A stretch of DNA of 64,000 bases, taken from Candidatus Altimarinota bacterium. Its GTDB lineage: Bacteria; Patescibacteriota; Gracilibacteria; UBA1369; UM-FILTER-53-11. Within the stretch, counting starts at the first letter, position 1. Every line of letters starts with the position of its first letter. A program made the translations under genes and the position numbers. Below are positions 25,558-42,350 of the stretch, piece by piece. The notes under the pieces were generated by a model. It was given only the letters and a program-made list of their open reading frames with translations. It searched no databases and was not told where the DNA came from. The stretch spans positions 5,111-69,110 of the forward strand of contig JAGOUV010000002.1 of assembly GCA_018061065.1 (NCBI GenBank). Direction: 5' to 3'.

Positions 25558-25566
25558 TGGTATAAT
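25558..25566 (+). promoter_or_regulatory. Extended -10 promoter of the pilin array (leaderless)
   Basis: TGG-TATAAT lies 6 nt before the ATG at 25573. This makes the in-frame ATG at 25522 upstream of the promoter and therefore unlikely as the start. Confidence 0.6.
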
Positions 25567-25572
25567 AATCAG

Positions 25573-26055
25573 ATGCAAAAAATGAAATTATTCCTGTGGA
25601 CGGTGATGTTAGGAGCAATGGTTTTTACAGCCGTTATTCCAAGTGCTTTTGCAGAAGATGATAAGTACGATCCATGCCGCGTTTCTTCTGATAAAACGGC
25701 AATTCCCGATACATTTAATGTACGTGATTGTTTGACGACATCGGAGCAACAGGATTCACAGTTAATCCCAAAAAATGCTTCGGATCCTGCACGAGGTGAA
25801 CAAGGTCCCCGTGAGCTGCCTAATGAAGAGGGAATTATTGTATTGCTCGTCTATGCGATTGATTTGTTTGTAAAAATTATCGGTTCGGTTTCACTGCTCG
25901 TATTTATTTTTGGAGCAGTTTTGGCTATTACCGCTGAGGGAAAAGAAGACCGTCTCACGCGTGGAAAAGATGCAATGATTTATGCAGTTATTGGCTTAGC
26001 GATAACAATGTTGTCATTTGTGATCGTCGCCTTTGTTCAGTCAATTTTCTATTAA
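25573..26055 (+). CDS. VirB2/TrbC-like pilin family protein 1
   Basis: A 160-residue protein with a signal peptide (LFLWTVMLGAMVFTAVIPSAFA, ending near residue 26), a Cys-containing polar stretch of about 65 residues, then two hydrophobic helices joined by a short charged loop (AEGKEDRLTRGKDA) as in TrbC/VirB2 pilins. First of five consecutive genes with the same C-terminal design. VirB2-like proteins build conjugative or T4SS pili, but no VirB4 or other secretion gene is present here, so the role is inferred from topology. Confidence 0.68.
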   Translation: MQKMKLFLWTVMLGAMVFTAVIPSAFAEDDKYDPCRVSSDKTAIPDTFNVRDCLTTSEQQDSQLIPKNASDPARGEQGPRELPNEEGIIVLLVYAIDLFVKIIGSVSLLVFIFGAVLAITAEGKEDRLTRGKDAMIYAVIGLAITMLSFVIVAFVQSIFY

Positions 26056-26060
26056 TACAA

Positions 26061-27218
26061 ATGGTTTCTTTTATAAAACGAATAACGGGTCAGCTGCTGA
26101 TGGTAACGCTTTTGTTGCCTCTTATGACGATGTCCGTATATGCACAGAGCCCAGCAGCGGAGCAGGGACCTGGTGCACGTAATCCTGATGAGGTTCGTAT
26201 ATATTATTCCGAGCCGATTGGCGCGGGTGATAAAGTTATGCAAATCACCGGATGCAAAAAAGTACAGGCGTATGCAGGTGTGGCATGTAATGACTTTACT
26301 AAGGATATTTCTACCGCGCAGTGTGTTGATAACAAAACAAATAAAGTGCAGACAGGTAAATTAATTAAAGGTTGCATTAAACCAAAAGACGAACAGGATT
26401 TTCCTGAAGGTGATCCTCGTGCAAAATATCCGGTTGTCGATGCAGAGTCTATAGCGGCTTATGATCGCAATGATCCATGCCGCACAAATCCTTCAGAAAA
26501 CGCCTATCTCTATGGCCCGGTCTTGGGAGTCGCGATTGTAAGGGATGCCAATGGAAATGAGCTTACCAATAGTATGGAGTGGAAAAGTTTAGGAATATTT
26601 CCTGTACAAGATGAGAAAGTGCCACCTACTAAAGCCCAAGTTCTCAAGGAATTTAAATCATCTCTTAAGGAAGAAGATATTAAACTGGTTCCGCTCTATA
26701 AGCCTACCGTATGCGGAAAATTTGATGTGCTTGCGGGAGATAATCCGGGCAGTCCGGAGGCGATGGGAGGAATTACGCTTGGCCAGTTAACGGAACTTTT
26801 TAAGGCTGAGGGGGGAGGACAATCGTATGCACCTGATTTTGTTGCGAAAGAATTTGACCGAGTTGGCTGTAATTCAGATAATTCTACGGGAAAGGTGGGT
26901 GATATCGAACAATCTACTTTTTACGATCAAAATCCTTCATTTACCTGCAGCATACTGGAACGCATTACCGGCAGATCGGGCAGTGATCTTTTTGGCCGTT
27001 ATGTAAGTGCGTTATATCGTTGGGCCGCAAGTGTTGTAGGCATCATTGCTGTGCTTGTAATGGTCATTTCCGGCATACAGATTTCTGTGGCGGGCAGTGA
27101 TTCAGGAAAAATCGAAGAGGCAAAAGGCCGCATTGCACAGTCATTAGTCGGTCTTGCGATTTTATTTTTATCAGGCTTAATTCTTTACACGATTAACCCC
27201 GGATTCTTTACTGGTTGA
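26061..27218 (+). CDS. Large VirB2/TrbC-like protein with long extracytoplasmic domain
   Basis: A 385-residue protein: signal peptide (~1-29, ending MSVYAQ), about 270 polar residues with seven or more Cys (likely disulfides), then the paired-helix VirB2-like C-terminus (~310-385; GIIAVLVMVISGIQISVAGS, loop DSGKIEEAKGRIAQS, second helix ending LYTINPGFF). The paired-helix part is homologous in layout to its four neighbours; the long insert is not recognised. Starts 5 nt after gene 1 and ends 10 nt before gene 3. Could be an adhesive or cap version of the pilin. Confidence 0.66.
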   Translation: MVSFIKRITGQLLMVTLLLPLMTMSVYAQSPAAEQGPGARNPDEVRIYYSEPIGAGDKVMQITGCKKVQAYAGVACNDFTKDISTAQCVDNKTNKVQTGKLIKGCIKPKDEQDFPEGDPRAKYPVVDAESIAAYDRNDPCRTNPSENAYLYGPVLGVAIVRDANGNELTNSMEWKSLGIFPVQDEKVPPTKAQVLKEFKSSLKEEDIKLVPLYKPTVCGKFDVLAGDNPGSPEAMGGITLGQLTELFKAEGGGQSYAPDFVAKEFDRVGCNSDNSTGKVGDIEQSTFYDQNPSFTCSILERITGRSGSDLFGRYVSALYRWAASVVGIIAVLVMVISGIQISVAGSDSGKIEEAKGRIAQSLVGLAILFLSGLILYTINPGFFTG

Positions 27219-27228
27219 TTATATTATT

Positions 27229-27633
27229 ATGAAACGATTTTTTCTTACTACCTTGGTGATGTTGTCGACGCTCATGTGTACTGTTTCAGCAGTACAGGCT
27301 CAAGATGGAAAAGTGGGACCAGCAAAAGGAATTCCCTGTATTCCTAGCTTACCCTGTATTACTCAAGAGACTCAAAAGAGTGGGCAAGGCACGCGAGATG
27401 AGATTCTTAATAATTTTGGTTCAAGTTTTATCACCGCATTTATTGGTTTGATAGCAGTTGCATCGGTTATTTTTATTATCGTAGGTGGTGTGCGCCTGCA
27501 TACATCCATGGGTAATGAAGAGGCAGTTGGTGCTGCAAAAAAAATAATTATCTGGGCAATTGCCGGTTTGGCTATTTCTCTTATGGCTGCGGCTTTGGTC
27601 AGCATTGTATCTCGTGTTAACTTTGGTGCATAA
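27229..27633 (+). CDS. VirB2/TrbC-like pilin family protein 3
   Basis: A 134-residue protein with signal peptide (~1-24, ending VSAVQA), short linker with two Cys (CIPSLPCITQ), and two helices around the loop GGVRLHTSMGNEEAVGAAKK. The GNEE-x-x-G-x-x-KK loop and the W-A-I-A-G-L-A-I second helix are shared with gene 4, showing tandem duplication. Membrane location is expected. Confidence 0.72.
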   Translation: MKRFFLTTLVMLSTLMCTVSAVQAQDGKVGPAKGIPCIPSLPCITQETQKSGQGTRDEILNNFGSSFITAFIGLIAVASVIFIIVGGVRLHTSMGNEEAVGAAKKIIIWAIAGLAISLMAAALVSIVSRVNFGA

Positions 27634-27635
27634 CT

Positions 27636-28040
27636 ATGAAAAAAACTATTTCACTTATCGTACTCTGCGTCGCTCTTTCCGGGCTCTATATCCCCGCAGC
27701 ATTGGCGCAAGCAACAGAGCGCAAGGCACCATCGATTGAAAATATCTTACCTAAAACTGTTGGACAGCGTGAGGACTCAGGCAAGCAATCTCTTCCTACG
27801 GGAAATTTGAAGACGGAAATTGTTCCTACTGCGATTAAAATGTTTCTGGGGTTCATGGGAGTCATTAGCTTTGTCATTTTCTTATATGGAGGTGTGATGT
27901 TGGTTGTTGCGCAGGGGAATGAAGAAGAGATCGGTAAATTTAAAAAAATGTTGCTCTGGTCTGTTGTAGGTTTAGTTATAATTCTTGCATCGTACGGTAT
28001 CGTTGATGGTGTCGCACGATTAATAACGCGTAGCGCATAA
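27636..28040 (+). CDS. VirB2/TrbC-like pilin family protein 4
   Basis: A 134-residue paralogue of the previous gene: signal peptide ending PAALA (~24), polar linker without Cys, first helix, loop VVAQGNEEEIGKFKKMLLW and second helix VVGLVIILASYGIVDGVARL. Two nt after gene 3. Same predicted topology as VirB2-type pilins. Confidence 0.72.
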   Translation: MKKTISLIVLCVALSGLYIPAALAQATERKAPSIENILPKTVGQREDSGKQSLPTGNLKTEIVPTAIKMFLGFMGVISFVIFLYGGVMLVVAQGNEEEIGKFKKMLLWSVVGLVIILASYGIVDGVARLITRSA

Positions 28041-28042
28041 CT

Positions 28043-28495
28043 ATGAAACGACTTTCACTTTTACTGTCCACATTTCTCCTCCTGATGAGCTTTTCTGCGC
28101 CGATGGCTTTTGCTACGGGAATGGGACTCAATCCTGATTTACGTCCTAATAGTGCGCCAACGATTTCAGGAAATAAGGAAGATCCGTATACGAATTTCGA
28201 TGAAGCGCGTGTTAAACTTACTCAGAGAGTAGTGAATATTGTACTCGGAGTTGCAGGTGTGATCGCGGTTTATTTTATTGTGAACAGTGGATTTGCGTTG
28301 GTTATTTCGAGTGGAAGTGAGGAAGCAGTGACACAACACAAAAAAAGCATTACATGGGCACTTTTGGGCTTGCTGCTCATTATTCTTTCGTACTCGATTA
28401 TTACGTTTGTTATCAAAGTGACGCTTACGGCCGATCAATCAAAAACTCCGCCCGCAGCTACGTATATTGAAACAATTCACGAAAAAGCAGCGTAA
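28043..28495 (+). CDS. VirB2/TrbC-like pilin family protein 5
   Basis: A 150-residue paralogue: signal peptide ending PMAFA (~24), linker, first helix, loop ISSGSEEAVTQHKKSITWAL, second helix LLLIILSYSIITFVIKVTL and a polar C-terminal tail of about 20 residues that the others lack. Two nt after gene 4; its stop directly abuts the convergent metG. Confidence 0.72.
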   Translation: MKRLSLLLSTFLLLMSFSAPMAFATGMGLNPDLRPNSAPTISGNKEDPYTNFDEARVKLTQRVVNIVLGVAGVIAVYFIVNSGFALVISSGSEEAVTQHKKSITWALLGLLLIILSYSIITFVIKVTLTADQSKTPPAATYIETIHEKAA

Positions 28496-30025
28496 TTATT
28501 CTGCTTTTGGTGTGCCGATCTTGGGAAAAAGCGCAGGAATCTTTTTTGTCATGGTTCCTTCTTTGAGCACGCCCCAGTTAACCGCATCGGGGTAAAGCTT
28601 GTCTGTTGGTGCACCCAGCGCATCGAGGATTTTATCTGCAGTCTCGGGAATAATTGACTTTAACATGAGTGCGGCATGGCGAATCATCTCAAGCAAATTA
28701 TAGAGCGCAATATGAACCGCTGCAGGATCTTTCTTGGCTAACTCCCACGGCTTTTTCTCTTCAATATACTGATTGCTAAAGGTGAGCAGGCCGATAATAT
28801 CTTCAATAGCCATCTTTATATTAAACTCGGCAATATGCTGCTGATAATTTTTCCATGTTTCCAAGACGCGTCCAGAAATAGCATCTTCACGAACGAGTGC
28901 GGGAACTTTTCCTCCACAGTATTTTTCTGTCATGGTGAGAACACGGCTCACGAGATTTCCCAAGTTATTAGCGAGCTCACTGTCAAAAATAACTTCATAG
29001 CGCAACTTTGAAAAATCACCATCGTCAGTTGTGGGGATTTCGCGCAATAAATAATAGCGTAGTGATTCGACACCATACTGTGCACCAATCTCAAATGGAT
29101 CTACAACATTTCCCAGCGACTTGCTCATCTTTTGGCCTTCAGAGGTAATATATCCGTGTACGTAAATGCTTTTAGGAATGGGAAATTCAGCTGCGATCAA
29201 CATGGCAATCCAGAGTCCGGCATGGAATCGTAAAATGTCTTTTCCAATCAAGTGTACATCGGCTGGCCACCATTTTTTATATTGTGCTTCATCGGTGCCA
29301 TACCCCACGCCTGTCATATAATTCGTCAGTGCATCGGGCCATACATACATGGTTTGAGTTGGATCGCCAGGTACCTCGATACCCCATGAGAGCGATTCGG
29401 TTGGTCGAGAAAAACTGACATCTCTGCCGTCTTCTATACCACTTTCGATCAATCCCAAAATTTCATTTTTGCGTGACTCGGGAAGAACGATCAACTCGCC
29501 CTTCTCAATTTTCTCTTTTACTTGAGGAAGATAATTGCTGTATTTGAAAAAATAATTTTCTTCTTTGAACTCTATCGGTGCTTTTTGATGAATGGGACAT
29601 TTGCCCTCAACTAAATCTTTTTCTGTGACATATGCCTCGCAACCGACGCAATATAATCCCTGATAACTTTTTTTATAGAGCGCGCCTGCCGCCTCCAATT
29701 TTTTCCACAACTCAATACATCCTTTTACATGGTAGTCATCGGTCGTGCGGATGAAGTGATCAATTGAGATATTTAAAAAACCACTTAGGCGACGAAACTC
29801 TGCGGAATTTTTGTCTGCTAATTCCTGAGGAGTCATGTTTTGTTCGCGTGCGGTTTGTGCCATTTTCAAGCCATGTTCGTCAGTTCCGGTCATGAAAAAA
29901 ACATCATCCCCTACAAAACGATGGTAGCGTGCCAAACAGTCTGCCTGCACTAACTCCATTGAAAATCCCACATGGGGCTTTGCATTTGTATAGGCAATAG
30001 AAGTAGTGATGTAAAATTTTGGCAT
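28496..30025 (-). CDS. metG: Methionyl-tRNA synthetase
   Basis: A 509-residue class I synthetase with FYITTSIAYTNAKPHVGFSM (HIGH region, HVGF), a zinc knuckle CVGCEAYVTEKDLVEGKCPI (~127-146), YVWPDALTNYMTGVG and the KMSKS motif in GQKMSKSLGNVVDP (~304-317). The C-terminal tRNA-binding (EMAP-like) domain of longer MetRS is absent. It lies 29 nt after hisIE on the same strand and may be read through from the his operon. Confidence 0.95.
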   Translation of the reverse strand: MPKFYITTSIAYTNAKPHVGFSMELVQADCLARYHRFVGDDVFFMTGTDEHGLKMAQTAREQNMTPQELADKNSAEFRRLSGFLNISIDHFIRTTDDYHVKGCIELWKKLEAAGALYKKSYQGLYCVGCEAYVTEKDLVEGKCPIHQKAPIEFKEENYFFKYSNYLPQVKEKIEKGELIVLPESRKNEILGLIESGIEDGRDVSFSRPTESLSWGIEVPGDPTQTMYVWPDALTNYMTGVGYGTDEAQYKKWWPADVHLIGKDILRFHAGLWIAMLIAAEFPIPKSIYVHGYITSEGQKMSKSLGNVVDPFEIGAQYGVESLRYYLLREIPTTDDGDFSKLRYEVIFDSELANNLGNLVSRVLTMTEKYCGGKVPALVREDAISGRVLETWKNYQQHIAEFNIKMAIEDIIGLLTFSNQYIEEKKPWELAKKDPAAVHIALYNLLEMIRHAALMLKSIIPETADKILDALGAPTDKLYPDAVNWGVLKEGTMTKKIPALFPKIGTPKAE

Positions 30026-30054: not shown

Positions 30055-30612
30055 CTATTCCATTCTTTTTCGCATCTCTGCCTCAATTGTTTCCAGGCTG
30101 ACTCTTTTTTGCACCAATACGACAAAGAGGTGATAGAGTAGATCAACGGTTTCTTCCGTGAGACGCTGGTTCGTTTCTTTTTTTGCTGCTTTTACTACTT
30201 CGGCAGCTTCTTCATATATTTTTTCGCATTGAGAAGAGAGCCCTTTTTTAAACAGTTCTGTGGTGTATGAAGATGGCGGAAGCTTTTTTTTGCGATCACT
30301 AATAATCCCATAGAGCTGGGCAAAAGCGCTTGAGAAACAGCTTTGTGTAAGGGTGTGACAGGTGGGGCCTTTTGGAGTAGCCGTAATAAGTAGCGCGTCA
30401 TCATCGCAGTCGCCGATAATTTTTTTTACAAAGAGGGTGTTGCCACTTGTCTCGCCTTTCATCCACAGTTTTTTGCGTGAGCGTGAATAGAACCAGACCT
30501 TTCCAGAAGTCTCAGTTTTTTTTAGAGATGCGGCGTTCATATAGCCGAGCATCAAGACTTTTTTTGTTGAATCATCTTGAATAATGGTGGGAATAAGTTG
30601 AGTTGTTTTCAT
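30055..30612 (-). CDS. hisIE: Bifunctional phosphoribosyl-AMP cyclohydrolase / phosphoribosyl-ATP pyrophosphatase
   Basis: A 185-residue fusion for steps 2 and 3 of histidine synthesis. HisI part (~1-100): [33 protein letters not shown] and QSCF carry the metal Asp/Cys/His ligands. HisE part (~105-185): [19 protein letters not shown] and [13 protein letters not shown], a MazG-like all-helical domain. Its start overlaps the hisAF stop (ATGA-type overlap), so translation is coupled. Order HisI-HisE is the normal fusion order. Confidence 0.93.
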
Positions 30613-32096
30613 ATGCGTACGGGAATGTTAAGGGATGCTAAATACTGCTTGGCTGCAGCGGTCGTCGTCTCGTGGTAGTGGAATAGACTTGCTGCTAAAA
30701 CCGCATCAGCATTACCTTTAGTGAGCGCTTGAGCCAAATCTTCCAGCGAGCCTGCGCCTCCCGAGGCGATCACGGGAATGCGCACTGCTGATGTTATTTT
30801 TTGAAGTAGTTCAATGTCAAAACCTGTGTGAGTTCCGTCTCTGTCCATTGAGGTGAGCAGTAGTTCGCCAGCGCCTAATTCTTCTACACGTTTGGCCCAC
30901 GAAACGGCTTCAAGTTCAGTTTTTTTACTTCCACCTTTTATATAGACATCATAACGGTCGTCTTTGCTATCACGATCTTTTTTTACGTCTATGGCAATAA
31001 CTACGCACTGTGCGCCAAATTCTTTTGAAGCTTCTGTGATGAGTTCTGGTTGAATAATGGCGGCGGTGTTGAGGGACACCTTGTCTGCACCAGCATTGAG
31101 AAGCGCGCGGATATCCTCAAGAGTTTTGACACCGCCGCCTACGGTAAAGGGGATAGAAATATGCGCCGCTACGCGGCGCACGGTATCGATCATCGTCTCA
31201 CGATTTTCTTTCGACGCCATAATATCCAGAAAAACAAGTTCATCGGCACCTTCTTCTGAATATTTTTTTGCAAGCTCCACCGGATCACCTGCATCTTTTA
31301 TATTCAAAAAATTAACTCCTTTTACCACACGCCCTTGTGCAACATCGAGACAGGGGATGATGCGCTTTGCTAGATTTGAGCGTGGACGAGTTACATTGAA
31401 TGCTTCAGATAATGAAATTTTGTTTTCATAGAGCGCCTTTCCGAGCACGGCACCGTAGGTTCCTCTACGGAAGAGTTTTTTGAGACTTTCAGTATCGGAC
31501 ACTCCTCCTGCTGCCACTACGTTGAATCCAAAACTCTGCACTTTTTCAATCAACTCAAAATTTGGAGTGGTGAGTGTGCCATCGCGTGAAATATCTGTTA
31601 CTAGCACTTCAGTAATTCCCCTTCGTTTAATTTCCTGCGCAAATGTATTAAGGTCTTGGCCACCGGTTTCAAGCCAGCCTTCGCGCGCAAGCTTTTCATC
31701 AATTATATCTAGTGCTACGACAATTCTTTTTGCTCCAAATTCTGTGACAAGTTGTCTCAGAAAATCAAAATCAGCGAGTGCTTTTGTTCCTAGTATAATA
31801 CGGTCGATGCCTTGCATGAGATAAGTTTGCGCAGCCTCAAGCGTGCGAATTCCTCCACCAACCTGCACAGGAATTTTTAGCGCATTTCTCATCTTAATGA
31901 TAAGCTCTTGATTCTTAGGTATGCCTGTTTTTGCCCCATCTAGATCAATAATGTGAACCATGGGTGCTCCTTGTGATTCAAATAGTTGTGCCATAGCAAC
32001 CGGGTCGTTTGCATAGATTTTTTTCGATGCAAAATCACCCTTAGTAAGTCGTACGCACTGGCCGTCGATAATATCAATTGCGGGAATGACTAACAT
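30609..32096 (-). CDS. HisA-HisF fusion protein (two consecutive TIM barrels)
   Basis: A 495-residue single frame. Residues ~1-237 are His[21 protein letters not shown] with the catalytic Asp, [28 protein letters not shown] and AAGGVSD. Residues ~243-495 are His[20 protein letters not shown] with catalytic Asp, [21 protein letters not shown] with the second Asp, [14 protein letters not shown] and [10 protein letters not shown]. It would carry out ProFAR isomerisation and, with HisH, formation of IGP and AICAR. HisA and HisF are normally separate proteins. No stop or frameshift separates the halves. Because trpF is missing from the trp operon, the HisA half may also isomerise PRA (PriA-like). 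Confidence 0.93.
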
Positions 32097-36898: not shown

Positions 36899-38023
36899 CT
36901 AAAAGCCGAATGCTGCTGGCGGACGAAGTGAATTTTGATTAGGACGCAGATCGCGAATTGGGGAGTTGTTTGCGTCAGCAGTGCGGTACAGTGCAAAGTT
37001 GAAGACCGGCAAGAAGCGATCTCTATCCAAGATCAAATCAATACTTTGCTTAGTAGCTCCGATCAGCGCAGATGCGCTAATATGGATGTTGGGCAAGGTG
37101 AGCTTTTTGTCTCCTGCAGCAACAACACGATATTTTATTTTTGAAATTTTTACGCGATTCTCAAATGAAAGTGTGCTGTCATCGGGAGCAATAAATTCTG
37201 GATTAATATAGTTACTTAGAATCAAGAAGTTATTTGTATGCTCGTCTAGGAATTGTTTGATCGTATAATCCGGCTTCACGAGAGTTGTGTCCGCCTGTCG
37301 ATCAAAGTACTGTGCATTCTGCCAACAATCGGGGTCTTGTGTAGTAGTAATACATGCGGGATCAGCTTGAGTGACAATCGGTGGGTTAGCTCCTGGCTGT
37401 GTAGCTGGTGAAAACTCATTGATAACCTCAAATTTCGTCTGATCACCGGCTATTTTTGTTCCAAAAAGTTTCCAACGCAACACGTCAAAATCTCCGATAC
37501 GCGCCAGTTTTTCTGGATTGTTTTCTATTAAGCGTTGCAGTGCCTGACTGATATCCGTAGGAAGATAATACTCCACGGTAAAGTCTTCCACTGCGCCTGT
37601 TGTCTCATCAAAAAGGGGAATGACCACTGATTCATTGAGTCCCAGCTCGGCAAAAGATTCTTCATTAAATTCATTATTTGCTTGCTCGGGACAGTTGCCG
37701 TACTCGTCCGCCGGTACACACTGACCAGTTGCATGAATTTCATAGTTGTATTTTGTGCTTGCAGACAAAAGCGCTTGATCCTGACCATCTTCTTCGTATC
37801 CGGGCTTGTGATCACTCACCGCTACCAATGCACGTTCTATGCCACCTTCTGCGGCATACCATGCCTTTGTTTGTTCCAGTAATAGACGACTGTCTTTTAC
37901 TGTTCCCAACAGCAATTCACTCACGCCCAAGGTAAGGGTCATAAGAATTCCCATGATCACAAGGGCGATCAAGAGTGCGCTACCGCGGCGATGATTTGCA
38001 GTATGATTCATATTAGTAATCAA
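36899..38023 (-). CDS. PilX-like minor pilin/assembly protein
   Basis: A 374-residue protein with the PilX N-terminal pattern: basic stretch then GSALLIALVIMGILMTLTLG (~14-33) and the conserved KAWYAAEGGIERAL (~49-62) that follows the helix in PilX_N proteins. The ~300-residue C-terminal part is mixed beta and unrecognised. Minor pilins of this type prime or decorate type IV pili. Overlaps the preceding pilin gene by 4 nt; last gene of the pilus operon. Confidence 0.72.
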   Translation of the reverse strand: MITNMNHTANHRRGSALLIALVIMGILMTLTLGVSELLLGTVKDSRLLLEQTKAWYAAEGGIERALVAVSDHKPGYEEDGQDQALLSASTKYNYEIHATGQCVPADEYGNCPEQANNEFNEESFAELGLNESVVIPLFDETTGAVEDFTVEYYLPTDISQALQRLIENNPEKLARIGDFDVLRWKLFGTKIAGDQTKFEVINEFSPATQPGANPPIVTQADPACITTTQDPDCWQNAQYFDRQADTTLVKPDYTIKQFLDEHTNNFLILSNYINPEFIAPDDSTLSFENRVKISKIKYRVVAAGDKKLTLPNIHISASALIGATKQSIDLILDRDRFLPVFNFALYRTADANNSPIRDLRPNQNSLRPPAAFGF

Positions 38024-38748
38024 GCTTCTGGAAGATTTACCGAATAGAGTGAGCGCGTTCCGTATGAACGTGACGAGTAGGTAGTTTTGTACTCCACTTC
38101 TTGTTTTGGAATTTTCACTTTAATGCCAATCGATGGCTGCCACTGAACTCCCGTATTAACTGCGTTTTCACGATCGTAGGGATTGAGGCGAGGGAAGACA
38201 TCAAAGGTTACCTGTTCCAATTTGACCGCAGAAGAAGTGAGATTCACCCATGCGGAATCTTGGCCTGATGATGAGGAAATCCAGCTCAATCCGTCAGTTG
38301 AACGCGTCTGTTCTTGTCGTTGTAATTTTTTAGGTGCATCTACCTCATCTGTCGTATCGCCAAAGCGGTACAGCGTGCGGGTCAGTGTTCCATCTGGTAA
38401 TTTTTTTACAAATGCTAGGACATTTACTTCGGTCGATAACTCTGAGTTTTCTGCGTTGGGAGAGCAGTCTGCATCGGAGAGTTCTACACCGTGTTGGCGT
38501 GCATATTCTGTGCCTGCGTTAGGACTAATACATGAAAAGTCGAGCAAGCTGTTGCGTGCTTCGTCGGCAATGATATCAAAGACATGGCGCACTTCTCGGT
38601 ATGTTTTTTGTGCCTCGTTTGCGCGGCGATTAGCACTTACCAAGCCAATATATGACTGTCCTGAAAGTCCAATAAATATAATAAAAATACTGATCGCGAT
38701 GAGCATCTCGATGAGCGTAAAACCTTTATGGGAGATAATAGCTTTCAT
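38020..38748 (-). CDS. PilW-like minor prepilin
   Basis: A 242-residue type IV prepilin-like protein. The processing site and helix HKGFTLIEMLIAISIFIIFI (~7-26) are canonical: Gly before Phe, Glu at +5. Its C-terminal domain is polar with Cys pairs (FSCISP, DADCSP). Length and position after the PilV-like gene suggest PilW/GspJ. Processing needs a prepilin peptidase, not found in the window. Confidence 0.78.
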   Translation of the reverse strand: MKAIISHKGFTLIEMLIAISIFIIFIGLSGQSYIGLVSANRRANEAQKTYREVRHVFDIIADEARNSLLDFSCISPNAGTEYARQHGVELSDADCSPNAENSELSTEVNVLAFVKKLPDGTLTRTLYRFGDTTDEVDAPKKLQRQEQTRSTDGLSWISSSSGQDSAWVNLTSSAVKLEQVTFDVFPRLNPYDRENAVNTGVQWQPSIGIKVKIPKQEVEYKTTYSSRSYGTRSLYSVNLPEA

Positions 38749-38755
38749 TTTGTTT

Positions 38756-39331
38756 TTAGAGGGGACCTTTGCGCCAGTCAGATAAAATAGTTTCGAGCGT
38801 CACCGTCGTTTCTTTGCCACGATTGGTGTACTTCACCTCACTGATCACGTGCATGAGCTCTGCAGGAGGAGTGGCATTTTCCGGCGCAGGCAAAGCGCCT
38901 TCTGCCGCAGGTGTCACGGGCTCGGGAAGAGCCGGTGCCTCAGGAGTTTCGTATGAGATCGTGATTGTTCGTCTAAAACGTTCACTCTCATCCGGCGTGC
39001 CTACATCAAGTGTCCATGGTGGCGTACCTTCCTGTCTTCCTAAGGGATCAACCGTAGTAACTACATAGGTTCCTTCGTCCAATCCGGTATCCCACGATCG
39101 GTTTTGCAGCCAGTTTGAATCGCGCTTGTTGCGAACAATTTCTAAACCTTCTTCTGCCAAATGATATGCGGCAAATTGATTGTGAGTCACATCGCTCAAT
39201 TTAATTGAGCCCTGCGTAAGCTCCGCAGTTGCCGTGATTACCAACGCAATCACCGCGATACCGATGAGTGTCTCGATGAGCGTGAAGCCACGGGCGTGGT
39301 TAGTAGTTAGTAGTTGGTAGTTAAATTTCAT
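38756..39331 (-). CDS. PilV/GspI-like minor prepilin
   Basis: A 191-residue prepilin with cleavage/helix motif ARGFTLIETLIGIAVIALVI (~13-32), then AAYHLAEEGLEIVRNKRDSN (~50-69), the pattern that follows the helix in PilV/GspI. A Pro/Ala/Glu-rich insert (~135-160) is low complexity. Starts by overlapping the FimT/GspH-like gene by 4 nt. Confidence 0.78.
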   Translation of the reverse strand: MKFNYQLLTTNHARGFTLIETLIGIAVIALVITATAELTQGSIKLSDVTHNQFAAYHLAEEGLEIVRNKRDSNWLQNRSWDTGLDEGTYVVTTVDPLGRQEGTPPWTLDVGTPDESERFRRTITISYETPEAPALPEPVTPAAEGALPAPENATPPAELMHVISEVKYTNRGKETTVTLETILSDWRKGPL

Positions 39332-39891
39332 GGTGTTGATTCTTGGCTTACAGTACAGCTTCCCGCCTCAGTATTGGGCGTGCTTTTTTCAATCGTTTCA
39401 CTGGCGGCACTGATAGAAACTTGTCGGCAGCGCACTTGAGATCCGCGTTGAATTTTCAACATAACATCCAAAACATCAGCAGGATTTTCCAATTTTAATT
39501 TTCCTTCCGGCGGAACAAACCACACAATTATTTCAGTATCCCGCGTATCAGCATTCATATACATTTGATCCACACTAATATCTGGCGGCCATGACATAGG
39601 CACGATTCTTTTATTTGCGGAATCGACTTCACAGATGCGTTGTCTCTGTATATAGGGCACATATACCATCTGTGGATATTCACCTGTCTTAAAACGCATG
39701 CCAATACAATTGGCTTGTGTCTGAGCCTCTGCGCGTAGGGTGTGGAATTGTGCGACCACTTTATCCGCTTGCAAATCAATCGCCATGTTTACTCGAATCA
39801 GCCCATAAGCGCCAACCGCCATTGTCGCCAAAATGGCAATAACAGTGATGACGATGAGGATCTCAATAAGGGTAAATCCATGACGTTTCAT
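39328..39891 (-). CDS. FimT/GspH-like prepilin
   Basis: A 187-residue prepilin with KRHGFTLIEILIVITVIAIL at the very N-terminus (residues 2-21), needing only a 5-residue leader to be removed. The following helix and AQFHTLRAEAQTQANCIGMR resemble FimT/GspH. Three nt after pilC. Could alternatively be the main pilin, since no other major pilin is visible. Confidence 0.78.
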   Translation of the reverse strand: MKRHGFTLIEILIVITVIAILATMAVGAYGLIRVNMAIDLQADKVVAQFHTLRAEAQTQANCIGMRFKTGEYPQMVYVPYIQRQRICEVDSANKRIVPMSWPPDISVDQMYMNADTRDTEIIVWFVPPEGKLKLENPADVLDVMLKIQRGSQVRCRQVSISAASETIEKSTPNTEAGSCTVSQESTP

Positions 39892-39893
39892 AT

Positions 39894-41090
39894 TTATTGT
39901 ACGGTTTGTGCGAGATTGAAAATCGGTGAAAGAATTGCGATGGCAAAAAATGCGACCGCCACACCAATCACCAAAATCATCAATGGCCCAAGTACCGTGG
40001 TAAGTTGCTTCAATGTGTTATCAATTTCACGCTGATAGTGAACTCCCACTTTGAGCGAAATTTCTCCAATGGTTGCGGACTGTTCTGCAATCGCGATCAT
40101 ATTGGAAACCGTTTCAGGGAAGAGAAAGGGCGCACGTAACAGCGTCAGAGAGAGCGGCTCACCCATCTGTACACTGGCGAGTGCCTCATATGTTTTATGT
40201 CGATACACCTCATTTCCAATGGTATTAGCAACGTACTCAAGTGCCTTGTTAATCGGAAGGCCACTTTCTACGAGTAATCCCAGCGAATCCACAAAGCGCA
40301 AAACATATACGGATCTCAAAAGTCGTCCGATAATAGGAATGCGCAACTTGTGAAAATCCCATGAGAAACGTCCTTCATCAGAGTGTGTATAAACGTGAAA
40401 TCCGATAATCGCAAAAATAATCAGAATGAAAATCACCCACCAATAGTGAGTAAACCACACGCTTGCTCCAATGAAAATTTTCGTCAGAGTTGGCTGTTGT
40501 ATTGCATTTTCAGCAAAGAGTGTTTGCATGCGAGGGACGACGAGTCCTAAAATCACTGCGATACTTGCGAACAGCGCAATCAAAACGGCGACCGGATAAA
40601 TCATCGCACCGATCAAACGTGAGCGTAGACCATCTTGTCGTTCAATATTTCCTGCAATCTTAAAAAGTGACTGTTCCAAATTTCCCGTAGCTTCTGAAGA
40701 GCGAATAATGCCGCGTTCAGAATCAGAAAAAACATCGGGAAAACGCTCAAGTGTCTGTGAGAATTGTTTTCCATGTTCTAGCTCGTAAGCGATAGTCGCA
40801 ATCACACGGCGAAGACGCTGATTTTCTGTTTTAGTACGCAAAATCTTAACCGATTGCACGAGCGAAATACCTGCACGAATCATCGTAGCAAGGAGCTCAA
40901 AAAAGTATCCACGTTCTTTGAGTGGAATACTGGAACGATCGATCAAAAAATCATTCACCTTTTGTGCAAATGTTCTGTGCGAGCGATCAGTTACACCGTA
41001 AATGAACTCATCATTGACCGTCTGTGACTGGACCTTTGAGAGTAATGCGGCGAGCTTTTGTGATTGTTTTTCATTTTGCAGTGCATCCAT
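39894..41090 (-). CDS. pilC: Type IV pilus inner-membrane platform protein PilC
   Basis: A 398-residue T2SS-F/PilC protein: two homologous cytoplasmic helical domains, each followed by membrane helices (three in total, near ~170, ~220 and ~375). The first repeat shows LIDRSSIPLKERGYFFELLA and the second FVDSLGLLVESGLPINKALE. PilC couples the pilus to its motor ATPase. PilB/PilT and PilM are not encoded nearby. Overlaps nothing; 2-3 nt gaps on both sides. Confidence 0.92.
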   Translation of the reverse strand: MDALQNEKQSQKLAALLSKVQSQTVNDEFIYGVTDRSHRTFAQKVNDFLIDRSSIPLKERGYFFELLATMIRAGISLVQSVKILRTKTENQRLRRVIATIAYELEHGKQFSQTLERFPDVFSDSERGIIRSSEATGNLEQSLFKIAGNIERQDGLRSRLIGAMIYPVAVLIALFASIAVILGLVVPRMQTLFAENAIQQPTLTKIFIGASVWFTHYWWVIFILIIFAIIGFHVYTHSDEGRFSWDFHKLRIPIIGRLLRSVYVLRFVDSLGLLVESGLPINKALEYVANTIGNEVYRHKTYEALASVQMGEPLSLTLLRAPFLFPETVSNMIAIAEQSATIGEISLKVGVHYQREIDNTLKQLTTVLGPLMILVIGVAVAFFAIAILSPIFNLAQTVQ

Positions 41091-41092
41091 AA

Positions 41093-41629
41093 TTACAAGT
41101 CTCTAGTTCTATAAAAACTGTGCATGGTGATATTTAAATTTACCAACTCAAGTCCCGCAGCGGTGACCGTGCGTGAGACTGATGCATTTTGTACAATAAA
41201 GAGACGAGGATTCTGCTCAACATATTTCAAGAAGCGAATCAGATTCTCATAAGGTCCCTGGAATCCAGCACTGATGCTGATTGACGGAACGCCTGCATTT
41301 TTTTGAAGTGAAAACGTCAACGCATTAAACGTAACCTGAGAGGTTTTTGCGAGGCGATTGATGTCATTAATAAGGGCTTCCTGCTGCAGTGTATCAGGAA
41401 TCTTGCTCGCCAACTCCTGTTCTTCAATTTCACTCAATACCTGACTTGTTTCATTTGAACCGCTGCTTGCGGTGATAGTATTGATTTCCTCCTGCAACGC
41501 ATCTACCCGTGATGCAAGATCGCTGTGGTCACTGCGTGCGGGGCTCGTATGAAATAGGAGCACAATGAGTGTTGCAAATAGTACGAGTCCGGCGACAAAG
41601 CTTGGTTGTATTTTTTTCTCTGAGTACAT
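41093..41629 (-). CDS. PilO-like pilus alignment protein
   Basis: A 178-residue bitopic membrane protein: short cytoplasmic N-terminus, one helix (VAGLVLFATLIVLLF, ~12-26), coiled coil (~35-85) and a ferredoxin-like domain with GPYENLIRFLKYVEQNPRLF, the PilO signature region. It partners the PilN-like protein encoded just upstream. Confidence 0.78.
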   Translation of the reverse strand: MYSEKKIQPSFVAGLVLFATLIVLLFHTSPARSDHSDLASRVDALQEEINTITASSGSNETSQVLSEIEEQELASKIPDTLQQEALINDINRLAKTSQVTFNALTFSLQKNAGVPSISISAGFQGPYENLIRFLKYVEQNPRLFIVQNASVSRTVTAAGLELVNLNITMHSFYRTRDL

Positions 41630-41639
41630 AGTGTTTGTT

Positions 41640-42350
41640 TTATTTTGGCTGAGCGGGAGCTACCGGTGTCGGTGTGCTCTGCTGGCTTGCTGGATTTTTT
41701 ATTTTTTGTGTTGCTGGAGTAGTTGGTGTTGTCGTAGCTGCGGGCGTTGTTGCCTCGGCCGGTACTGAGAAGTCAGTTAAGTTATCTGGTGTCAGTGCAT
41801 CTTTCAAGAAATTCATGTTCATAGAAAATGAGATCACCGTAGCACCCTCAACCGTTAAACTTCGTGTAATAGAAGGCACAAATACATTCTTAAATGACGG
41901 ATCACTTGAAAATGCGCTAATCACATCTGCAACATCTTTAAACGCATCACCACTTTCTGGACGTGTCATCGCATTGAGCGTGAGACGACCATCAGTTGTA
42001 CCATTATAGGTACGCACAATAATGACGGGCTGTTGCGTATCAGGTGTCTTAGGAATTGTTCGATCAATGCGTTCAGCAATGCGTGACCACTCGATACTCG
42101 ATTCTTTCAGATCATCCAATTTTGCTTTTACCTCCAAAGCCTTTGCACGCTTGCTCTCACGAGTCTGTGAGGCACTTGGCGTAATGAGCTCTTTTTTCTG
42201 ACCTTCTAAAGCCGTAATTTTATTTTCGAGCTGTGTTTTACTAATTTGATAATAGGCAGAAAATGCACTCACGACCACGAACGCTACCGCGGCAATAATG
42301 AGAATGCGTGGCTGTGCTGTACTTTGTGTTGGTGTTTCTTGTGATATCAT
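41640..42350 (-). CDS. PilN-like pilus alignment protein
   Basis: A 236-residue bitopic protein with one helix (ILIIAAVAFVVVSAFSAYYQ, ~16-35), a coiled coil (~36-80) and a globular domain, then a Thr/Pro/Ala-rich tail of about 40 residues. Position before PilO and PilC and the topology point to PilN, but the N-terminal INLLP motif that binds PilM is missing, and no pilM lies upstream. First gene of the pilus operon, with a strong promoter at 42368-42396. Confidence 0.62.
   Translation of the reverse strand: MISQETPTQSTAQPRILIIAAVAFVVVSAFSAYYQISKTQLENKITALEGQKKELITPSASQTRESKRAKALEVKAKLDDLKESSIEWSRIAERIDRTIPKTPDTQQPVIIVRTYNGTTDGRLTLNAMTRPESGDAFKDVADVISAFSSDPSFKNVFVPSITRSLTVEGATVISFSMNMNFLKDALTPDNLTDFSVPAEATTPAATTTPTTPATQKIKNPASQQSTPTPVAPAQPK

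Follow-up and report, generated by a model that had tools for sequence, protein, structure and literature searches.

The window, by which we mean the whole stretch of 64,000 nt analysed here, contains five consecutive genes on the forward strand (25573-28495) with intergenic gaps of 5, 10, 2 and 2 nt. The source genome is placed in the Peregrinibacteria/Peribacteria (Patescibacteria), and the array is a VirB2 array in the sense defined for Patescibacteria, a run of 2-11 pilin genes that are tandem or interrupted by a single gene (PMC12102498). An earlier reading, made from the sequence only, had reported five tandem genes with gaps of 2-10 nt, which the coordinates confirm, each encoding a signal peptide and two helices. 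All five proteins do carry an N-terminal signal peptide with A-x-A type cleavage sites (judged by eye), and a profile search identified one PF18895 (T4SS_pilin) helix-loop-helix hairpin per gene, with E-values of 4.3e-5, 1.2e-8, 3e-8, 4.4e-6 and 1.7e-8 for genes 1 to 5. Genes 2-5 pass the curated cut-off of 26.6 bits and gene 1 stays just under it with 23.9 bits. Despite this score pilin 1 groups with the clade of position-1 orthologues, and among the position HMMs its own position gave 85.6 bits compared to 58.9 for the next best. The whole 1.3 Mb genome (98.5% complete) holds 14 PF18895 domains, five of which belong to the array, and the same search gave matches in just one of 14 control genomes.

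Table 1. Features of the pilin array and its surroundings in the window.
Feature	Position	Strand	Description
possible extended -10 TGGTATAAT	25558-25575	+	exact extended -10 match; possible leaderless start
pilin 1	25573-26055	+	160 aa; signal peptide; ~70 extracytoplasmic residues including 2 Cys; PF18895 hairpin
pilin 2	26061-27218	+	385 aa; signal peptide; ectodomain of ~270 residues including 8 Cys; PF18895 hairpin with YTINPGFF at its end
pilin 3	27229-27633	+	134 aa; PF18895; position-3 clade
pilin 4	27636-28040	+	134 aa; PF18895; position-4 clade; some relatives have it fused to pilin 3
pilin 5	28043-28495	+	150 aa; PF18895; position-5 clade; C-terminal tail
metG	28496-30025	-	convergent gene, conserved next to the array throughout the order; no component of the machine
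type IV pilus operon	36899-42350	-	Pfam/NCBIfam
PilX/GspK-like	36899-38023	-	type IV pilus operon
three N_methyl prepilins	38020-39891	-	type IV pilus operon
PilC/T2SSF	39894-41090	-	type IV pilus operon
PilO	41093-41629	-	type IV pilus operon
PilN position	41640-42350	-	type IV pilus operon

The sequence-only reading had further described a G-(N/S)-EE-x6-KK loop and a W-A-x-x-G-L motif in the second helix. Both motifs exist, but in the alignment the loop spacing is x5 (G-(N/S)-EE-x5-KK) and the second residue of the helix motif is A or S (W-(A/S)-x-x-G-L). The Cys-rich extracytoplasmic domain assigned to one gene is that of pilin 2, and the C-terminal tail assigned to another is found on pilin 5. 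The proposed origin by duplication also held: the alignment and the joint PF18895 membership support a common origin of the five genes as VirB2-type (PF18895) pilins.

The label VirB2/TrbC-like was retained in part when both profile families were searched. PF18895 agrees with it (4/5 genes above cut-off), whereas all of the window's own genes are below the cut-off of TrbC/VirB2 (PF04956); only gene 4 was listed, with an E-value of 0.087 (13.5 bits; cut-off 27.9). The link to PF04956 is a weak one through relatives: three of 30 position-4 orthologues match at E ≤ 0.01 (best 4.8e-5), and a three-hairpin paralogue in the same genome lies above the cut-off (E 3.6e-10). The N_methyl prepilin motif (PF07963) was matched by the prepilins of the window's type IV pilus operon and by none of the five array proteins. 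In the AlphaFold models the hairpin of subunit 2 had pLDDT values of mostly 82-94 and its ectodomain mostly below 65; the mean for subunit 4 was 77.8, with helices at 58-91 and 96-133. A fold search of these two subunits against the PDB gave no significant match; helical hairpins are so simple that fold comparison could not distinguish those of pilins from others. The hairpin predicted for subunit 2 aligned to the CedA1 pilus subunit (8dfu) with a TMt of 0.64 at a non-significant E-value of 3.7, and a sequence-profile search of solved structures matched no pilin.

The exact extended -10 in TGGTATAAT stops 6 nt ahead of the pilin 1 ATG, and a leaderless promoter at this place is plausible. On its own the pattern TATAAT-N5-8-ATG occurred at chance level in the window (3 found, 3.2 expected). 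TGGTATAAT was not among the sites listed by a sigma-70 scan, where promoter-like sites stayed under the chance mean. Among the family members that share the upstream gene only one other (L072) has a similarly placed -10.

To compare the array with its relatives we used 20 genomes from the window's order together with 50 named loci, some of which belong to those genomes. Including the window there were 51 loci, of which 37 carry exactly five hairpins and make up the orthology set (185 hairpins); the shorter arrays are in part due to truncation where a contig ends. For 183 of the 185 hairpins the nearest hairpin from another locus was found at the same position. Positions 3, 4 and 5 formed pure clades (37/37 each) and positions 1 and 2 contained one misplaced member apiece, with clade supports of 0.93-1.0. 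The mean hairpin identity was 0.35-0.55 within a position compared to 0.18-0.25 between positions. Gene order and synteny were retained in the 20 genomes and in most of the 50 named loci. Two-hairpin (fused) genes occurred in 11 of the 51 loci, and in at least seven arrays with five domains in total the fusion joins positions 3 and 4, its hairpins sorting to both positions. By these comparisons the array is a set of five different, anciently fixed subunits in constant order through one whole order. The same five recur in the same order in the relatives, where the sequence-only reading had advised to look, and its idea of a division of labour among the pilins is strengthened by the five separate orthologous lines across 37 arrays.

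Homologues of subunit 2 were present in 58 of 59 genomes. Its hairpin is the most conserved one and ends in YTINPxFF; C270, Y376, N379, P380 and F382, among others, are invariant across 38 sequences. The ectodomain is family-specific and good alignment is confined to the window's own family. The records of the 50 named loci with a subunit-2 hairpin are mostly titled Peregrinibacteria, Peribacteria, Gracilibacteria or Patescibacteria, and the two titled Nitrospirota/Nitrospirae are probably mislabelled bins. Very long ectodomains were seen on two other pilin-hairpin genes, with 826 aa (L111, first pilin gene) and 714 aa (L177:10646-12790). In five loci (L103, L106, L107, L108, L115) the hairpin genes have neither pilT nor metG nor type IV pilus genes in their vicinity, and most of these loci hold just 2-3 hairpins.

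The sequence-only reading had overlooked the type IV pilus cluster near the array, as well as the pilT gene upstream of it in most relatives. The convergent metG lies within 1 kb of the array in 38/44 testable loci and type IV pilus genes follow beyond it in 29/34. In 31 of the 45 loci with enough upstream sequence pilT is found on the same strand at most 1.6 kb upstream of the array, mostly overlapping pilin 1 or no more than 20 nt from it. This ATPase was identified as PilT by NCBIfam (442-459 bits, cut-off 319), compared to ~50 bits for VirB11. In the window's own family ftsK replaces pilT upstream of the array; the genome's pilT is located 4 kb past the right end of the window (C5:73309-74328) and is accompanied by dus, its companion gene elsewhere too. 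The type IV pilus operon directly follows metG in relatives, and in the window histidine genes sit between the two; HisA and HisF are fused there in one 495-aa gene (30609-32096, reverse strand). As metG and dus share the synteny, neighbours need not be partners. None of the 51 loci of the order had virB4, virB3, trsD or a match to the VirB6-like query beside the array.

That neither VirB4 nor VirB6 is near the genes had been stated before. This is true locally, but it is incomplete, as VirB4, VirB3, TrsD-like and VirB6-like genes are found scattered elsewhere in the genome. The proposed genome search for a VirB4-like ATPase found one at C18:152109-154166 (CD1110 family, 367 bits; cut-off 325). 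VirB3/PrgI and a TrsD-like gene adjoin each other at C18:204329-205539; the former is above cut-off (PrgI, E 3.9e-16) and the latter reaches 36 bits, under the NF041427 cut-off of 200. The VirB6-like protein on C20 (E 9.4e-8) was detected with a profile built from unlabelled large membrane proteins adjoining virB3 in other lineages, which has matches in 30/31 genomes. In this genome PF03135 and PF19590 gave no match, and neither did TrbL_3, a search that was silent in all controls too. CD1110-type VirB4 was present in 53 of 59 genomes. Loss of VirB4 with the array kept was considered for the other six and rejected: assembly gaps explain these cases and affect gyrA, the usual VirB4 neighbour, which is missing from three of them; in the other three the contig breaks off at gyrA on the side where VirB4 would be expected. 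For the relaxases we searched one family, PF03432, which was found in 0/59 genomes and matched in the Lactococcus control. In two sister-family genomes a VirB4 of the same model lies ~5 kb away from the pilins, separated from them by metG. Several further lineages of the phylum have a large membrane protein together with VirB4, TrsD and VirB3 right next to a pilin array. The simplest view is thus that the array belongs to the phylum's T4SS and has been moved away from the rest. Since this group does have the T4SS, with its genes dispersed, searches restricted to the virB4 neighbourhood miss it.

Tandem pilin arrays have already been published for this phylum and the kind itself is known (PMC12102498, PMC10633639). 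One study lists 441 VirB2 arrays of 2-11 genes each in 383 assemblies and proposes antigenic variation or host range for them; PilT goes unmentioned (PMC12102498). According to the other, a pilin series is essential in Ca. S. epibionticum, and the T4SS of that organism is without a recognisable relaxase or coupling protein (PMC10633639). It is the one Patescibacterium in which pilin arrays of the T4SS have been tested. The array resembles the published ones in its Pfam family, its tandem, chromosomal and relaxase-less state and the strong divergence among its members. It differs from them in that the same five orthologues occur order-wide, at a distance from virB4, with metG and type IV pilus genes as neighbours and in most cases pilT too. 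New is the constant five-subunit set throughout the order, usually in a row with pilT and in no case adjoining a secretion ATPase of its own; we found no description of a pilT/type IV pilus neighbourhood of pilin arrays in the open-access literature. The Ced/Ted systems of Crenarchaea (CedA1, TedC) are likewise domesticated and relaxase-less and combine VirB2-like pilins with a VirB4/HerA-like ATPase, and Ced acts with a type IV pilus system, Ups (PMC9905601). However, they have no array of five pilins, and their VirB4 family is a different one (the CedB model gave 48.6 of 700 bits on the VirB4 of this genome). The conjugative TrbC/VirB2 pilins (PF04956) share the signal peptide, the two helices, the charged loop and the weak profile link via relatives, but the window's proteins are below their cut-off and the PF03432 relaxase was absent from the 59 genomes.

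Our best explanation, which we hold with moderate confidence, is that the array encodes five pilin subunits of fixed composition that belong to a relaxase-less, domesticated T4SS. The machine would probably be a pilus or conduit for host contact, assisted by type IV pili. Each subunit would be exported by its signal peptide and sit in the membrane as a hairpin, and sequence and VirB2 precedent suggest that the charged loop faces inside. Beyond the homology, fixed five-subunit orthology, synteny and co-occurrence that we observed, there are good grounds to think that the five subunits form one hetero-oligomer: the five fixed orthologous lines and the fused pair argue for a set composition and not for an interchangeable repertoire. 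This hetero-oligomer would most likely be a short pilus or conduit, and it is likely to be driven by a VirB4 ATPase encoded elsewhere. Subunits 3 and 4 are probably adjacent in the assembly because they are fused in some relatives, and subunit 2 with its changeable ectodomain may be the tip or partner-contact subunit. The gene neighbourhood and the Ced precedent suggest that type IV pili help this structure; they would draw the partner cell near, a role that Ups pili have for Ced in Sulfolobales, with the retraction motor PilT usually encoded in the same gene run as the pilins. Contact with a host is the role we infer.

This explanation is supported by PF18895 in all five genes, the five orthologous positions, the conserved synteny and the 3+4 fusions, by the genome-wide VirB4, VirB3, TrsD-like and VirB6-like genes, the sister-family VirB4 near the array and the T4SS genes that adjoin pilin arrays in other lineages of the phylum, and by the published essential pilin series in the T4SS cluster of S. 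epibionticum (PMC10633639). Against it stands that in all 51 loci of the order the array is without a VirB component next to it. Neither the fold comparison nor the profile search of solved structures pointed to a pilin. VirB4 and the array are both nearly universal, so their co-occurrence cannot prove joint working. Furthermore PF18895 hairpins also occur three to a protein and inside a 1665-aa PKD protein, so such a hairpin is not always an extruded pilin. A standing partnership of the two machineries, in which the five VirB2-like subunits form a pilus or conduit whose assembly and use go along with those of a retractable type IV pilus, is a tentative suggestion that we consider possible and rather doubtful. 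In that case the epibiont would draw a host cell in and open a channel to it, with pilT heading the run of pilin genes. The neighbouring pilT and type IV pilus genes supply a concrete, testable partner.

The same neighbourhood could also mean that the five hairpin proteins left the T4SS and serve the neighbouring type IV pilus as an accessory complex, such as a platform in the membrane or wall that is used when PilT drives retraction or when DNA is taken up. The frequent pilT close upstream, the type IV pilus genes past metG and the fact that VirB genes never adjoin the array in the order speak for it. However, pilT and the array are apart in the window's own family and both persist, sister-family arrays lie near VirB4 and metG, and with dus and metG in the same synteny the neighbourhood may be inherited and not functional; we regard such a complex as unlikely. 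A hetero-oligomeric membrane pore or scaffold that never extrudes a pilus would agree with the fixed composition of one copy per subunit, the 3+4 fusions and the hairpin relatives found as six-helix proteins and inside the PKD giant. Yet VirB2-like pilins are themselves stored in the membrane as hairpins before extrusion, so these features are compatible with a pilus, and signal peptides and ectodomains suit surface display; a pore or scaffold is improbable in our judgement. We consider it very improbable that the array is a repertoire for antigenic variation or host range, with interchangeable variants of one pilin, as suggested for arrays in PMC12102498. The low identity among the members and the differences of the subunit-2 ectodomain between families would fit a repertoire, whereas the five conserved orthologous lines in fixed order, free of recent shuffling or amplification, contradict it.

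Other gene clusters were encountered during the comparison. At C18:96029-105270 (L009:2029-11270) two proteins with triple PF18895-type hairpins (312 and 351 aa) are followed by two PKD proteins, one of 1665 aa with one hairpin and one of 729 aa. The triple-hairpin protein is present in 56/59 genomes of the order and above the TrbC/VirB2 cut-off; as candidate for the missing VirB6 it was rejected, since the profile comparison with VirB6-like proteins gave a probability of 0.2%. Genome G002 has a second compact T4SS cluster (L124:17-11967) with a 1297-aa protein, VirB3, a protein at the TrsD position and VirB4. A recurring cluster (L200:4358-14752, L201, L202, L203) that stands away from VirB4 combines a small protein, probably rpsF, with an ssb-like gene, others, a VirB6-like protein and a protein of ~1090-1320 aa.
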